Shown here: positions 5,195 to 32,225 of the stretch, one piece after another
How positions within the stretch are numbered: the stretch's first letter is position 1
How the letters are laid out: every line of letters starts with the position of its first letter
Origin: Candidatus Zhuqueibacterota bacterium
GTDB taxonomy: Bacteria > Zhuqueibacterota > Zhuqueibacteria > Thermofontimicrobiales > Thermofontimicrobiaceae
Length of the DNA: 34,556 nucleotides
Reading direction: 5' to 3'
Assembly (NCBI GenBank): GCA_016783825.1
Contig: JADHVV010000024.1
Span: 1-34,556 of the forward strand
Notes under the pieces: model-generated
The model's database searches: none
The model's input: the letters and a program-made list of their open reading frames with translations, nothing else
What the model was told of the DNA's origin: nothing
Program-made: the position numbers and the translations under genes

Positions 5195-6439
5195 TTATTC
5201 CGGTCGTATGAGCTTGGCATATAAAGTTAAATATGAAAATATGAATATTGTACCTGCAAAAATCCCTGGACGGAATAAATTTGATTCCTGAAAATTGATT
5301 ATTAAAATTACGATAATTAATAAGTGCCACAGGTATGTTTCTTTTAGTTTTATAAGATTAATAAAATAAAAGACCAACATTAGTACGAAGAGAAAGAATC
5401 CAATCAGACCGACTTCATTGATAATATCTATGTACCCGTTATGAGATTGTAAGGGCAGCCAAACAAATTCTTCATATAATATTATTAAATCAATATTTTC
5501 CATCACCCAAAAACTCTGATATCCTGCTCCGAATAACAAATGCTTATTGATTTCCCGAAACATATAATCCCATAAATCAATTCTACCAGTAAAAGTCATA
5601 TCTTTTCCAAAGGCGTTTGGAATTACACTTATGAGTTGTGGATCGGCAAACATAATACTAATAAAGATTAACAAAAAGCCGGAAATAATTACCACTGTAA
5701 AAGAATTTCCTACACCCAGCGGTTTGAAAATGGAGTCGACAAATAATAATGAACTTAAAAATAGAAAGACTAACAATGCTAAAATAGAAGTCGTACTGGT
5801 TGAACCAACCAATAAAATGAGTGAAATCATCAAAATGAAATAGGTGAAAATTTTTTCCTTATGTGAGCATTTTACATTTAATATTATAAAACATAATAAA
5901 ATACTTATTAAACTCATCTGCCCAAGATGATTTTTCGTCGAGGCAAACCCTCTCCAAGTATCAAACATAGGATCGCTAGCCCCGGGGATAAAAAGTACAA
6001 CAAATAAACTTAAGATGACATAAGGATACAGAATTAATTTGATATATTTTATTATGTTATAATCTGAACGAACATGTAATAGGAATGAGATACATATTAA
6101 CGCAACAGAGAAGATTCTAAACCATCTTTTAAAGGAGACAAAACTAAAATCAGACCAGGTTATGCTGATCAGGCACCAAATCAAAAAAAAAGAAAGAAAT
6201 TTTTCTTTTTTGATTAAGAAGTATAGTTCAGGAATTTTTGGAAAAAGAGCAAAGCAAGAAAATAAAAATAAAAAGCTATAAACAATTTGATTTATTATAT
6301 TGGAAGTACCGAAATCACCTGTTTCAGTGACATGTTCTTGAAATGGCAGAGAAGTACCAAAAAATCCAAAAAACAAAAATATGACAAATGATACTATTGC
6401 TACTTTTGAATGAATTGTATTATTTATGTTTTTTTTCAT
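5195..6439 (-). CDS. O-antigen ligase/polymerase-family membrane protein (Wzy/ExoQ-like)
   Basis: This is a 414-residue polytopic membrane protein with about ten to eleven hydrophobic segments. Family landmarks are visible: WRGFASTKNHLGQ in the first half, TFTGRIDLW before the large periplasmic loop, GAGYQSFW, and SHNGYIDIINEVGLIG, which carries the conserved His of the Wzy_C/ExoQ family. Such proteins polymerise undecaprenyl-linked repeat units in the periplasm or ligate polymer to lipid A core. With a Wzx-like flippase and a Wzc-like protein in the same locus, polymerisation is the likelier role. It is the last gene of the minus-strand locus. An 865-base repeat-filled gap separates it from the preceding gene, so it may need its own promoter. 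Confidence 0.85.
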   Translation of the reverse strand: MKKNINNTIHSKVAIVSFVIFLFFGFFGTSLPFQEHVTETGDFGTSNIINQIVYSFLFLFSCFALFPKIPELYFLIKKEKFLSFFLIWCLISITWSDFSFVSFKRWFRIFSVALICISFLLHVRSDYNIIKYIKLILYPYVILSLFVVLFIPGASDPMFDTWRGFASTKNHLGQMSLISILLCFIILNVKCSHKEKIFTYFILMISLILLVGSTSTTSILALLVFLFLSSLLFVDSIFKPLGVGNSFTVVIISGFLLIFISIMFADPQLISVIPNAFGKDMTFTGRIDLWDYMFREINKHLLFGAGYQSFWVMENIDLIILYEEFVWLPLQSHNGYIDIINEVGLIGFFLFVLMLVFYFINLIKLKETYLWHLLIIVILIINFQESNLFRPGIFAGTIFIFSYLTLYAKLIRPE

Positions 6440-6887: not shown

Positions 6888-7245
6888 ATTACAATTTTTG
6901 TAATCGTTCACCTGTATCAGATGTCAAAATTTTATGCTCAGCTGAATATCTTTGAAACCTTATTTTTGTCTTTTTAACCTTAGTAGAATAATGATAAGCC
7001 ACAAATTTTGACCTTATTACCTTATTATTCTCTTTAAATAAGGTAATAAGGTTGGGTGTTTGTAGATTTTGCTTATTACTAAGGTTTCAAGACAAAAATA
7101 AGGTTTTTCAAGGCAAATCTTAATTCTACTTTGTCAGATTACAAAAAAAAAATATCAATAAGCAATGTGACAAAGTAGAATTAAGATCGCAAATGTATGA
7201 TTTCAGACACAGGTGAACTGTTACCAATTTTTCTAATTCTGTGAT
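6888..7245. repeat. Nested palindrome, three levels, followed by a fourth hairpin
   Basis: The outer pair is GTTCACCTGTATCAG near 6907-6921 against CAGACACAGGTGAAC at 7204-7218. The middle pair is 6955-6999 against 7071-7105 (AACCTTATTTTTGTC and its reverse). The inner pair is a perfect 16-base match, 7011-7026 with 7037-7052. Beside the middle pair, still inside the outer pair, lies a perfect 20-base pair, 7117-7136 with 7168-7187. GATTACAATTTTTGTAATC at 6890-6908 is another short hairpin. The array separates the GT4 gene from the polymerase gene; no ORF of note is present. Confidence 0.75.
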
Positions 7246-7304: not shown

Positions 7305-8450
7305 CTATTTCATTATCTGGATTAAATTTTTATATAATTCCAGAGTTTGATAACCAATGTTATTCCAGGAATATTTTTCTTTACTCAGTTTTTGAGCGTA
7401 TAATCCCATTTGCTCTAATCTATTTGAGTCGGTAACAGCAGACATTATAACTTTGGCAAGATTTTTTTCATCATTTGTTTCAAGCAAAAAACCGCTTTTG
7501 CCATGTTCAATTGTTTCAGTAAAATCACCTACCCTGGTTGCTATGACCGGTCTTCCGAATGAATAAGCCAGGTGCATTAATCCACTATGATAAATATTTT
7601 TATAAGGCAGCATAACAATATCAGATGCGATAAAATAGTTTGCCACCTTGTCAGAAGGGATGAATTCCGAATGAAAAATAATGTTATCTTCCTGATTAAT
7701 TGTTTCTATTTTTTGCTTATATTCTTGTTCCAACTGTTTTGTATGAACAGCGCCTGAAATGATCAATTTTAAATTTTTGATTTGATTTGAAGCAATTCCA
7801 AAGGCATCTAATAATAGATCCAATCCTTTATATTTTCTAATATATCCAAAAAATAATAAGACGTGGTCATCCCGATGTACGTTAAAGTTTTTTCTTGCTT
7901 CACTCTTTGAGATAGCTTTTTCCGGTAAATATATATCAAAGTTACCGTGGGGAATTACACACACCTTCTCTTTTGTTATATTAAAATTATTAGCTAATAT
8001 ATTTTTAATAAATTTTGAATGAACAACAATCGAACTTGAAAATCGATAGACAATGTTTTTTAGCAAATGATGGGTTCTGTTTTTTTCATGCGGCAAAACG
8101 TTATGTGCTGTATAAACTAAATTTATTTTCAATAAACTTAAAAACATAAAGAAAAATGTTTCAAACCCTTCTCTACGAAAAAACTGGTAATGAACCACAT
8201 CGATTCTATCCTTTAAAATAAAACATAATAACTTCAGGTGGAATTTAAAATATTTAACAGTTTTAATAAATTTGTTCTTTTCTCTTTGTTTTGATGGCAG
8301 CCAGCGCAAAACAAAAAAATTAATCGGTGTATTTATCTCCCGGTCTTCCGTTATAATGAGACGGATATCCACTCCGGCGTTTTTAATCCCATTACAAAGA
8401 CAAATCGAATAATCATTACCGACTAAAGAGTCTATCATTAATATTTTCAT
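7305..8450 (-). CDS. Glycosyltransferase family 4-like (GT-B) protein
   Basis: The protein has 381 residues with the two Rossmann-like halves of a GT-B enzyme. The N-terminal half starts KILMIDSLVGND and includes DVVHYQFF and YTAHNVLPHE. The C-terminal half carries the nucleotide-sugar-binding region: FFGYIRKYKGLDLLLDAF, ASDIVMLPYKN, SGLMHLAYSFGRPVIATRVGD and ETIEHGKSGFL. Such enzymes add one sugar from a nucleotide donor to the lipid-linked repeat unit on the cytoplasmic face. The classic E-x7-E motif is weakened: the first Glu position reads within HSGLMHLAYSFG. Donor and acceptor cannot be inferred. The flippase gene lies 152 bases upstream with a palindrome between. Confidence 0.85.
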   Translation of the reverse strand: MKILMIDSLVGNDYSICLCNGIKNAGVDIRLIITEDREINTPINFFVLRWLPSKQREKNKFIKTVKYFKFHLKLLCFILKDRIDVVHYQFFRREGFETFFFMFLSLLKINLVYTAHNVLPHEKNRTHHLLKNIVYRFSSSIVVHSKFIKNILANNFNITKEKVCVIPHGNFDIYLPEKAISKSEARKNFNVHRDDHVLLFFGYIRKYKGLDLLLDAFGIASNQIKNLKLIISGAVHTKQLEQEYKQKIETINQEDNIIFHSEFIPSDKVANYFIASDIVMLPYKNIYHSGLMHLAYSFGRPVIATRVGDFTETIEHGKSGFLLETNDEKNLAKVIMSAVTDSNRLEQMGLYAQKLSKEKYSWNNIGYQTLELYKNLIQIMK

Positions 8451-11171: not shown

Positions 11172-11286
11172 AATAATGTTTTTAGTTTTGATAATCAGAG
11201 TCTTTCTGAAATTTGCTTAATTTGTAATCGTTCATCTGGTAACAAGACTACAACGAGATTACCCGGTTAAAAACGAAAAAATAAAA

Positions 11287-11458
11287 CCAACGGATAGAAA
11301 CAACCCAACGGATAATTAAAAAAATGATCCGGAATTCATTTTGTACTGTTTTTGTTGAATGCAAATATCTTTTTGAGCAAATTTATCAAATTTTTTAATT
11401 GTCATTTTATGTTGATTGTATTTTAAATAGCATCCGTTGGGTTGTTTCTATCCGTTGG
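11287..11458. repeat. Perfect 27-base inverted repeat with doubled word
   Basis: Positions 11287-11313 and 11432-11458 are exact reverse complements over 27 bases. Each arm contains the word CCAACGGAT twice, separated by AGAAACAA. The loop is about 118 bases of AT-rich DNA with no gene. It fills the 321-base gap between the toroid-protein gene and the GT2 gene. A perfect match this long argues for recent origin or active maintenance. Confidence 0.85.
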
Positions 11459-11492
11459 ATTTTCATTCGTTGCTATTTATCAATTTTATTTT

Positions 11493-19853: not shown

Positions 19854-20025
19854 GTAACTATTCAGCTAAAAACAGGCCTGGCAATAAAGCACGATAAAAA
19901 AATATTTCGCAGAATAATTTATAGCAGAATGATGCTTTCTCTTTTTATTATTCTGCTATAAATTATTCTGCTACAATCTTAAAATCTGTGTTTTAAATAG
20001 TTCACATGGCTCGCTGAATAGTTAC
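19854..20025. repeat. Doubled-word palindrome inside an outer GTAACTATTCAGC inverted pair
   Basis: The outer arms GTAACTATTCAGC (19854-19866) and GCTGAATAGTTAC (20013-20025) enclose a perfect 22-base inverted repeat, 19909-19930 with 19950-19971. Each inner arm holds GCAGAAT twice. The same inner word family recurs at 31934-32102, where the neighbouring genes are unrelated. It lies in the gene-free gap 19800-20406. Confidence 0.75.
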
Positions 20026-20406: not shown

Positions 20407-21447
20407 TTATCCAACATGTTTGTACAACATATTTCCGGCTGCTTTTAAAATTGGTAAAGGCATCTTTTTGAAAAAATAATTGTACCAGCCGCTTTCTTTG
20501 TTTTTTTCGTTTACAAAATTTTTTACCGAAAAATCATATTTATAATAGTTGATCATTTTTTCTTCAGCTCCCCAGCCCAGTTTGAAGCGGCGCAGTCCTT
20601 CATTTGATATTTCTGTTTTTCCAAAATCAAAAGTATCAAAATTCTGTAAAGCATAATTTTTTATTGCTTCCCACATAACCAGGTTATTGGCTCGCAAATG
20701 CAAGTACTTTACATCTGAAGCGCCATATTTATAAATGACCGTTTTTGAAAAATGAAAAAATATGGCAGCTGCAAGACACCGATTATCTTTTTTTGCGATC
20801 AAAATATTTCCATAATTATTTTTAATTATGTTTTCATAAATATTTTTAAAAAACTGTTTCGGTTGTGGGGGAAGTCCATGTTTTTTCCTGGTGATACAAT
20901 TAAGCGCATAAAAATTATCCATTGCGTCAGATGAATTATCGATACTAACACAAACTCCTTCACGTTCAGCTTTTTTGATATTTCGCTTTGTGTTGCTTTT
21001 AAGACCTGCAAATAATGTTTTTTCATCCGAAAGAGATAATAGGTGCTGATAATATTGTAATGAACTATTTTTATCCCGAAATAACTCCGAACCACCCCGG
21101 AATTCCAAATATTTCCACCCTCCATTTTCTCCGAACACGACAATGTCATTAAGAAAATTTTTGAAATAGCTTTTGTCCGGAATAATAGGATCGCAGTGAT
21201 CAGTGAACGGTAGTGAAACAGCCCGGTTGCCGGTAATGCGGCTTTTTATTTCCATTAATGGCAGCAAAAAATTAAGCCTGTTTTTAGAGATTTCGGCAAA
21301 ATACATCGGCACATAGCCATAACTTTGATGCAACACCTTAGCCCAAAACGACGAATAAAAAAAAGATGTGTTTTTCAATGTTTTAATATGGTCATCCCAG
21401 TTTTTATAAATAATGGGATTAATATATTGTAATTTGCTTTGAACCAT
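20407..21447 (-). CDS. FemAB-like (GNAT-fold) peptidyl/aminoacyl transferase, copy 1
   Basis: The 346-residue protein shares the same landmarks as the protein at 14449-15501: FFYSSFWAKVLHQSYGY, then LPFTDHCDPI, RNIKKAEREGVCVSI, KKHGLPPQPKQFFKNIY, AAAIFFHFSKTVIYKYGASD, FDTFDFGKTEIS and LRRFKLGWGAEE, ending PLPILKAAGNMLYKHVG against PLPLLRLEGKMLYHHFG in the other. The two clearly arose by duplication and have diverged, so they may add different residues or act on different sugars. It lies in a segment bounded by inverted repeats, with a hairpin upstream in the gap to the acetyltransferase gene. It would act in the cytoplasm, with aminoacyl-tRNA as the family-type donor. Confidence 0.82.
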   Translation of the reverse strand: MVQSKLQYINPIIYKNWDDHIKTLKNTSFFYSSFWAKVLHQSYGYVPMYFAEISKNRLNFLLPLMEIKSRITGNRAVSLPFTDHCDPIIPDKSYFKNFLNDIVVFGENGGWKYLEFRGGSELFRDKNSSLQYYQHLLSLSDEKTLFAGLKSNTKRNIKKAEREGVCVSIDNSSDAMDNFYALNCITRKKHGLPPQPKQFFKNIYENIIKNNYGNILIAKKDNRCLAAAIFFHFSKTVIYKYGASDVKYLHLRANNLVMWEAIKNYALQNFDTFDFGKTEISNEGLRRFKLGWGAEEKMINYYKYDFSVKNFVNEKNKESGWYNYFFKKMPLPILKAAGNMLYKHVG

Positions 21448-21641: not shown

Positions 21642-22121
21642 TTAAATATCATCTATTTTCTTTAAAACTCGCGCAGGATTCCCGGCAACAATTGTATCTG
21701 GCGGCACATCCCTGGTAACGACACTGCCAGCGCCCATAATGGCATTTTCACCAACAGTTATTCCACATAACAACGTGGTGCTGGAACCAATAGATGCGCC
21801 TTTTTTGATGAGTGTGGGGACACACTTCCAGTCATCTTCGGTTTGCAATTTCCCATCGCCACTGGTAGCGCGTGGATAGATATCATTGATGAATGTAACA
21901 TTATGTCCAATAAAAACATCATCTTCTATTGTAACGCCTTCACAAATAAATGTGTGACTGGAGATTTTACAATTATTCCCTATTTTAGCGCCTTTCTGGA
22001 TTTCCACAAAACAGCCGACTTTTGTGTTGTCGCCAATCTCACATCCGTAGAGATTGACAAAACTAAAAACTTTTGTATTTTTACCTAATTTTACATCTTC
22101 CGTTATGAGTTGATATTTCAT
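21642..22121 (-). CDS. Left-handed beta-helix N-acetyltransferase (WbpD/WlbB-like)
   Basis: The 159-residue protein is built of hexapeptide repeats from start to end, for example KLGKNTKVFSFVNLYGCEIG, then DNTKVGCFVEIQKGAKIGNN, GVTIEDDVFIGHNVTFIND and ASIGSSTTLLCGITVGENA. It ends with the conserved GAGSVVTRDVPPDTIVAGNPARV. It matches acetyl-CoA-dependent acetyltransferases that modify the 3-amino group of UDP-sugars. The next upstream gene encodes a Gfo/Idh/MocA dehydrogenase of the WbpB/WlbA type, its usual pathway partner, which supports the call. The PLP aminotransferase normally between the two steps is not in the window. Confidence 0.88.
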   Translation of the reverse strand: MKYQLITEDVKLGKNTKVFSFVNLYGCEIGDNTKVGCFVEIQKGAKIGNNCKISSHTFICEGVTIEDDVFIGHNVTFINDIYPRATSGDGKLQTEDDWKCVPTLIKKGASIGSSTTLLCGITVGENAIMGAGSVVTRDVPPDTIVAGNPARVLKKIDDI

Positions 22122-24384: not shown

Positions 24385-24741
24385 GAAAAGCGAGAACCAA
24401 AAAAGTAACCGGGTAAGGGTAATTAGTTTATTAGGTAATTGGGAATTATTAGCGCACTAAAGTGCAGGCGAAGGCTGAGGCAAAGGCGAAGGAAGAAAAT
24501 CCTTAATCCTGTAATCTTATATCTTGCTTCGCCTCAGCCTTTTCGTTGTAATTGTTAATTGAACTGGCTTAAAAACTTTTGCAATAAAAACGAAGATTTA
24601 ACTTGTAATACTATAATAATCATAATTTATTTTTACCCAATTACCTTATTACCCACTTACCCTATTACCAAATTCCCTTTTAAATGCTCATTTTTTATTC
24701 AGCATTTTTTTCCGGTGGGCAAGAATTTGACGGTTTAGTAT
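24385..24741. repeat. Dispersed element B, copy 1, interrupted by element A
   Basis: It starts GAGAACCAAAAAAGTAAC and carries the left arm GGGTAAGGGTAATTAG, TTAGGTAATTGGGAATT (about 24408-24446). After an interruption it continues with the right arm ACCCAATTACCTTATTACCC (about 24638-24660), CTATTACCAAATT, and a tail GGGCAAGAATTTGACGG that runs into the 3' end of the Wzc-like gene. The second copy at 29398-29574 has the same arms and tail without the interruption. Confidence 0.75.
24449..24615 (+). repeat. Dispersed non-coding element A, copy 2
   Basis: It runs from TTAGCGCACTAAAGTGCAGG to ACTTGTAATACTATAA. The left palindrome arm (24466-24492) holds GGCGAAGG twice around GGCTGAGG, and the right arm 24527-24540 reads CTTCGCCTCAGCCT. 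It matches positions 1-160 in order and orientation. It is inserted in the loop of element B. Confidence 0.75.
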
Positions 24742-29397: not shown

Positions 29398-29574
29398 ACA
29401 AGAAAGCCAGAACCAAAAAGGTAACTGGATAATTAGTTTACTGGGTAATTGAGAATTTCTCATGCTGATAACTTTTTTATTACCCAATTACCTTATTACC
29501 AAATTACTTTTCGAGTGTTCTTTTCAAATTCAGTACTTGCTTGCCCAATAGGTAAGAATTTAGTTCGCTGGTGC
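29398..29574. repeat. Dispersed element B, copy 2 (uninterrupted)
   Basis: It starts CCAGAACCAAAAAGGTAAC. The left arm GGATAATTAG, ACTGGGTAATTGAGAATT (about 29427-29457) pairs with ATTACCCAATTACC (about 29480-29493). The tail TTGCTTGCCCAATAGG, AAGAATTTAG runs to the stop of the epimerase gene. The loop is only about 20-30 bases, where copy 1 carries element A. Confidence 0.7.
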
Positions 29575-31722: not shown

Positions 31723-31933
31723 TATTTTCCTTTCTATGGGTGCAAATTATAAAACATCAAACCGAGGAGTTCGGAAAGACTTAATTTTAACGGATTAAAG
31801 AACCCAACTTAGGGTGCAATCCCATAATTTCGGAATTTGCTTGAAAAGTATAAAAAATAGTAACCATTTGTTTTATTTTAGAATAGAACTATTGTATTAA
31901 AGGTTGATTTTGTGTTTTCGAATCATTATTTAA

Positions 31934-32102
31934 ATAGCAGAATAATTTTTAGCAGAATAATAAAAAAATAGAAAAGTGTTATATTGTCAACATCCAGGTT
32001 GACATCAGCGATAGCAGATTATAATATTCAATTACTAACTTTATATAATTCCAGAACTTAAATTATTAAATAAAATTATTCTGCTATCAATCATTCTGCT
32101 AT
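31934..32102. repeat. Doubled-word palindrome (GCAGAATAAT type), second site
   Basis: The left arm 31934-31961 holds ATAGCAGAATAAT and TTAGCAGAATAAT. The right arm 32075-32102 holds ATTATTCTGCTAT and CATTCTGCTAT. The loop is about 113 bases of AT-rich DNA. It lies in the 503-base gene-free gap 31723-32225. The words match those of 19909-19971, twelve kilobases away, but the loops are unrelated. Confidence 0.8.
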
Positions 32103-32225
32103 AATAAGAATCTCCTGGTTTTTTTCTATAATTTTAATTATCCGAAATTAGTGGTTTACACCCCCAACTGATAACATCCGTTGGAAAAAAATTTACTCTG
32201 TAACTAATTATTTCGCATACCTGTA

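Follow-up and report, generated by a model that had tools for sequence, protein, structure and literature searches.

Long terminal inverted repeats, some of them dispersed, flank the Y1 genes of the TIRYT/TIRtrons described in 2013 (excerpts of PMC3733652). According to excerpts of a 2018 survey (PMC6006769), 20 of the 26 described TIRYTs belong to subclass 2.1, with a median length of 238 aa and an HTH tail, and subclass 1.2 is defined by the signature Y---Q--HH and in general lacks both typical terminal structures and IS properties. REPINs, of the REPIN/REP-RAYT system, were described in 2011 (excerpts of PMC3116915).

The locus considered here lies in a window of 34,556 nt, the whole stretch of DNA that was analysed, from a Candidatus Zhuqueibacterota bacterium. 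In the gap flanked by an O-antigen ligase-like gene (5195-6439) and a glycosyltransferase gene (7305-8450), both on the minus strand, the window carries nested palindromes, which are probably mobile elements packed together and not a folded RNA. With a probability of roughly three in four, they represent three nested and mutually unrelated mobile elements, in which a core, the miniature of a Y1 transposon, lies inside an outer element, A, and a further element, B, was added later. The core resembles REPINs and TIRtrons and is new as a miniature of a Y1 subclass for which terminal structures have been described as generally absent.

Nested inverted repeats and the outer element A

The first-pass annotation had recorded nested inverted repeats with a separate stem at 6888-7245, and all of the arms were located. 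The outer pair (6897-6933/7191-7227; 37 nt) is 73% complementary, and its strongest part is formed by the tips (6900-6918/7206-7224). The middle stem (6955-6972/7089-7106; 18 nt) and the inner stem (7011-7026/7037-7052; 16 nt, with a 10-nt loop) are both 100% complementary, and a second stem (6976-6986/7076-7086), which the annotation had merged into the middle level, is also present. The separate stem (7117-7136/7168-7187) is perfect over 20 nt and can be extended to 24 nt at 96%. Between 6700 and 7400, 30 14-mers have their reverse complement in the same stretch, whereas 500 first-order resamples contain 0.28 on average and at most 9; the longest perfect arm (20) is less telling, as the resamples reach 11 on average and 22 at the highest. 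The recurrence of the whole arrangement at other loci is a stronger argument against chance than these arm statistics.

Element A, a GTAA-tipped miniature inverted-repeat element with dispersed copies, occupies 6900-7224, with the core in its middle and B inserted on its right side, and is bounded by an 8-bp target duplication (CAATTTTT), of which the left copy (6892-6899) is identical to the right one (7225-7232). The gap sequence is matched by 73 stretches of the window's own genome, and 39 stretches around these matches were retrieved. In the aligned copies (14 rows), the common order is a tip, ~55 nt, the core, ~60 nt and a second tip, the tips being GTAAYCGTTCACC-like. The duplications were counted over 14 copies (the window, L010, L012, L013, L015, L016, L017, L019, L022, L069, L070, L071, L079 and L080), in which the 8 bases outside both tips match at 96 of 112 positions. 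Shuffled pairings of the flanks give an average of 48 and a maximum of 73, with 0 of 20000 reaching 96, and the matches fall to 50 or 58 when the frame is slid by one base. Since the 8-bp flanks match across the 14 copies far above both the shuffles and the slid frames, A is a transposed unit. The duplication is perfect in five of the 14, the window included; in L013 and L022, only 4 of the 8 positions agree. Additionally, A is found in genomes G003, G004, G005 and G008, the last of the same order as the window's genome, and in L238, labelled Deferribacteres, where it is without B and is flanked on both sides by GCAGTGTT.

Terminal inverted repeats, a target duplication and the lack of coding capacity mark A as a MITE, and MITEs with 8-bp duplications are its nearest likeness in this respect. 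GTAA tips and 8-bp duplications are also features of IS66 elements. However, no IS66 transposase was found in the window's own assembly (82.8% complete). IS66 transposases occur in 14 of 40 genomes, and the tip match is only partial (GTAACTGTTCAGC), beside one IS66 gene (L121).

Further repeats are present near A and elsewhere in the window. On its left, A is adjoined by GTGAGCGATTAC, an inverted copy of its own tip (6881-6894/6898-6911) with the duplication CAATTTTT between, which may represent one end of an earlier A copy that became a target again. Directly upstream of A lies a further inverted repeat (6685-6709/6815-6839; TTTTACAATAATATTACCTCTACGA, 88%). TTACC/GGTAA unit repeats with inverted partners are found at 24416-24663 and 29427-29538, and positions 1-159 form a long direct repeat with 24472-24616. 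A 55-nt inverted repeat (20296-20375/22178-22264; 93%, CGCCATGC...), with its arms about 1.8 kb apart, encloses the ORFs 20407-21447 and 21642-22121, and a TAGCAGAATAAT palindrome family is represented at two sites (31925-32122 and 19909-19994).

The core and its Y1 relatives

The core (6955-7106) is interpreted as the non-autonomous remnant of a Y1 (IS200-like) transposon, the ends of which are joined by the 10-nt loop; the same arms bound Y1 genes. Its outermost stem pairs the left arm (6955-6972) with the right arm (7089-7106) perfectly over 18 nt. Inside it, the middle motif AACCTTAGTAG (6976-6986) pairs with 7076-7086 and is conserved in alignment A2, with 92.5% of cells paired in this helix (helix 2), and the inner stem pairs ACCTTATTACCTTATT (7011-7026) with 7037-7052 perfectly over 16 nt. 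The inner palindrome had previously been read as inserted into the middle one; instead, both travel together as one core, with the arms as Y1 transposon ends.

The exact inner-stem pattern is present in at least 112 stretches in named genomes, whose titles include Bacteroidota, Planctomycetaceae, KSB1, Ignavibacteria, Kapaibacterium, Neomarinimicrobiota and Caldithrix. Among the matches listed, the AACCTTAGTAG stem lies beside the inner pattern in most and the outer AAACCTTATT stem in many, and some are down to one arm. Over 35 chosen core copies, paired columns have a mean identity of 84% and unpaired columns of 53%. The L010 element is matched in 10 of 40 genomes (own included), several of which hold the core part alone, and the core is found without A in G008 and other genomes, members of several other phyla included. 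Within the window's own genome, the core also lies inside an outer element D (GTAAAACCTCAGTTAC) in L025, L027, L031 and L032, and inside an outer sequence E (GGGGG-AATT...) in L023 and L035. A further nesting level is seen in L018, where a copy of A plus core lies within a CCAACGGAT palindrome of a repeat family also present at window positions 11283-11462. Core arms also form serial arrays, with seven arms over 5 kb of L156 (a Mariniphaga record) and three at 172-nt spacing in L090 (G004); an integron-like cassette array was therefore considered, and was set aside because the intervals are largely other repeats.

The parent of this family is represented by L253, a Bacteroidales record in which 483 nt separate the arms and a single frame, encoding a 159-aa Y1 protein (P0001), fills the loop. 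P0001 matches PF01797 (E 2.5e-18) and, in NCBIfam, IS200/IS605 (NF033573), with no REP_Tyr_transpos match at E 0.001. Y1 homologues were searched over the class (63 genomes including the window's own), and 30 loci were listed. Arms are present at all five close homologues fetched (L264-L268; 59-71% identity), a count that leaves out one further close fragment (G047:C26); they lie at both ends in L264, L265 and L267, and at the right end only in L266 and L268. Among the same 30 loci, arms were found at none of the 25 distant homologues (L269-L293; 25-39% identity), where the inner motif is weakly matched once in L288 and a few loci match single motifs with two mismatches. P0001 and the proteins of L264-L268, the six that are arm-bearing, form one clade among 31, with a support of 100/100. 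The Y---Q--HH signature is carried by P0001 and four of its five arm-bearing homologues (L268 is internally truncated), and by 28 of the 31 rows overall.

The link between gene and palindrome is visible within the window's own genome. In L027 (G000:C171), the longer inner loop reads MKVEYNNLDTHFVFSMLNQPENHKKETFADDYEQFIKHYHETLQKN, in which the transposase is reduced to its start and its end, joined in frame, and a short ATGAAAG, perhaps the old start codon, is kept in the loop of L025, L031 and L032. Based on L253, the arm-bearing homologues and L027, the core palindrome is thus regarded as two Y1 transposon ends joined by gene loss. Such loss, leaving a palindrome, is documented for the family; for the window copy, it would follow from homology. 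A Y1 match is present at 4 of the at least 112 named-genome loci, complete elements being excluded by design because the search pattern demanded a loop of ≤30 nt.

Alternatively, the Y1 link could be secondary, the core palindrome being of other origin and one Y1 lineage inserting in its loop; insertion sequences that insert into REP sequences are known, such as ISPpu9 (excerpts of PMC8450116). This possibility is disfavoured because the frame fills the 483-nt loop of L253 and leaves no room for separate transposon ends. The association between arms and Y1 genes is, moreover, clade-wide, and L027 reflects an internal deletion rather than the interruption of a palindrome; a secondary link is therefore considered very unlikely.

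No intact Y1 of the arm-bearing clade was found in the window's own assembly (82.8% complete). The one intact Y1 gene of this genome (C183; L260, the same as L287), which encodes 147 aa, was rejected as the engine of the core, as it lies outside the arm-bearing clade and is surrounded by other palindromes, of a family (GAATAGCCAC...) unrelated to the core. A degenerate own-genome Y1 (L261) has motif-like pieces only and is not counted as arm-bearing.

The first-pass annotation had itself named one conserved folded RNA as the alternative, to be recognised by relatives that share the complete structure with compensatory changes. Relatives do share A and the core, and the stems are well kept, with 86.5% of cells paired in alignment A1 (14 A copies); covariation in the 35 diverse cores of A2 is 0.094 compared with 0.078 when shuffled (2 of 500 as high). 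However, the compensatory changes are not above shuffles in A1, where two-sided changes affect 8 pairs compared with 8.4 and the score is 0.079 compared with 0.075. The excess in A2 is judged weak and non-specific because two-sided changes are concentrated in spacers with poor pairing (helices 3 and 4, 46-58% of cells) and are as numerous in slid controls. Furthermore, copies are found at unrelated sites with target duplications. A conserved RNA was rejected on the covariation in A1 and on a search of Rfam, which gave no match in the window, and is regarded as extremely improbable.

Order of the layers

Serial insertion had also been proposed for the outer and middle levels. This is well, though indirectly, supported, as the core is found without A, and D both with and without the core, but a search of 40 genomes with joined consensus flanks yielded no core-free A, and the core-into-A step consequently has no empty site. 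The absence of a core-free A, together with the position of the core near the exact centre of A and the weak pairing of the A flanks outside the core (77.6% of cells in helix 2), would also suit a single element, in which the GTAA tips would be the true ends, the ACCTTA arrays of the core sub-terminal sites of the same DDE transposase, and only B inserted. Against this stand the cores without A tips in the window's own genome and many others, also around Y1 genes, and the D tips that exist without the core, and a single element is considered unlikely. In L305 and L314 (own genome, C100 and C54), the D tips surround a different palindrome, and the D outer tips seem to have been combined with several centres. 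If the core is a separate insert, it would have entered A once, early, with the composite spreading afterwards, and this is favoured over A having been built around the core. The inserted unit lacks a sharp border, since A and E copies share, by eye, some sequence beyond the core.

The insertion of B, in contrast to that of the core, is seen with its empty site. Element B (7124-7180), a short inverted-repeat element with TTCTACTTTGTCA tips, is missing from most A copies, and the same four bases, a TTAA target duplication, lie on its left (7120-7123) and right (7181-7184). The view of the separate stem as a serial insertion was borne out in the 14-row A alignment, where B is present in the window copy and L009, and the site is uninterrupted in nine rows (L010, L012, L013, L015, L016, L017, L018, L026 and L033), reading ATTAAG in L013; L014, L019 and L022 are too diverged at the site to judge. 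All 14 rows of alignment A1 are without B, seven of them from other genomes. A third filled A copy, L011, holds a shortened B. Outside A, the window copy and L009, the latter with a degraded right end, have unrelated flanks, and an A already carrying B therefore seems to have moved.

The B family is dispersed, with 82 tips at ≤1 mismatch in the window's own genome compared with 18 for the reversed control. The four bases on both sides are identical in all 13 copies that were read at both ends, which shows that B makes a 4-bp target duplication; the tetramers are TTAA in nine, CTAA in L034 and L044, ATAA in L039 and TTAC in L047. Most B copies (L030, L034, L036, L039-L044, L046 and L047) hold a TGTCATTCC...GGAATGACA palindrome in the loop, which is another nesting step, and the window copy and L028 are without it. 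For an autonomous B, no tip pairs 800-2500 bp apart were seen by eye in the own-genome tip list.

In the proposed mechanism, the core would be a non-autonomous miniature of a Y1/HUH transposon, whose long arms, each built of arrayed ACCTTA motifs, would be the ends that formerly bounded the transposase gene; loss of this gene would have left the near-perfect palindrome. Movement of the core would probably have occurred as a single-stranded hairpin, cut by a Y1 enzyme in trans. At an early stage, the core would have come to lie mid-way in the GTAA-tipped miniature A, with its 8-bp target duplications, and a DDE-type enzyme, possibly an IS66-like one, would have copied the composite; the duplications are observed, and the enzyme is postulated. 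In an ancestor shared by the window copy, L009 and L011, B would later have inserted in A, 13 bases from the core, producing a TTAA duplication. The layers are ordered, A plus core being common to several genera and B recent, and the miniature of a single-strand transposon would be carried within a double-strand one and so spread by means of two engines.

A broader proposal, which we consider doubtful, is that a subclass-1.2-like Y1 clade uses long inverted ends made of ACCTTA arrays and conserved from Bacteroidota to Planctomycetota, and that its miniatures preferentially enter the apices of palindromic elements extruded as single-strand hairpins. If so, nested palindromes would be a regular product of a Y1 enzyme, with DDE transposases spreading its miniatures.

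Comparison with known Y1-associated systems

A search of the open-access literature, with subscription journals outside its scope, found no description of the core repeat. As P0001 carries the subclass 1.2 signature, the arm-bearing clade with its miniatures is considered new within subclass 1.2. A probable DNA substrate and mobile derivatives can now be assigned to a Y1 subclass reported to be generally without terminal structures, and the activity of this subclass becomes testable in vitro because such a substrate is supplied.

The Y1 proteins of the core family resemble those of IS200/IS605 in matching PF01797 and NF033573. However, their ends are complementary to each other and have no small sub-terminal hairpin each. 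In this respect, the arms of L264 fold alone at -2.3 and -9.1 kcal/mol, and together at -65.5 kcal/mol.

Analogous to REPINs, the core is a non-autonomous inverted doublet that can form one hairpin, is dispersed as a unit and has a matching Y1 enzyme, and each of its arms contains GTAG (within AACCTTAGTAG), as do the GTAG-tagged REPs. In contrast to REPINs, its arms measure some 70 nt, not 20-40, and have no clear hairpins of their own, as in the left arm of L264. Additionally, P0001 is not named a RAYT by NCBIfam and thus does not classify as a REP-associated enzyme.

As in TIRtrons/TIRYTs, a Y1/HUH gene is bounded by long inverted repeats, which are also dispersed without the gene. Many TIRtron/TIRYT repeats share the trait of a GGGGWSAS motif. 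The core family differs in that its arms are ACCTTA arrays, its Y1 proteins have 147-159 aa, with P0001 (159 aa) below the TIRYT median of 238, and the subclass 1.2 signature, and its miniatures form complete palindromes from end to end and occur in several phyla.

With TnpA-Y1 of subclass 1.2, the arm-bearing proteins share Y---Q--HH, WQ and a length near 148 aa. Contrary to what has been reported for this subclass, the arm-bearing clade possesses long arms and dispersed miniatures.
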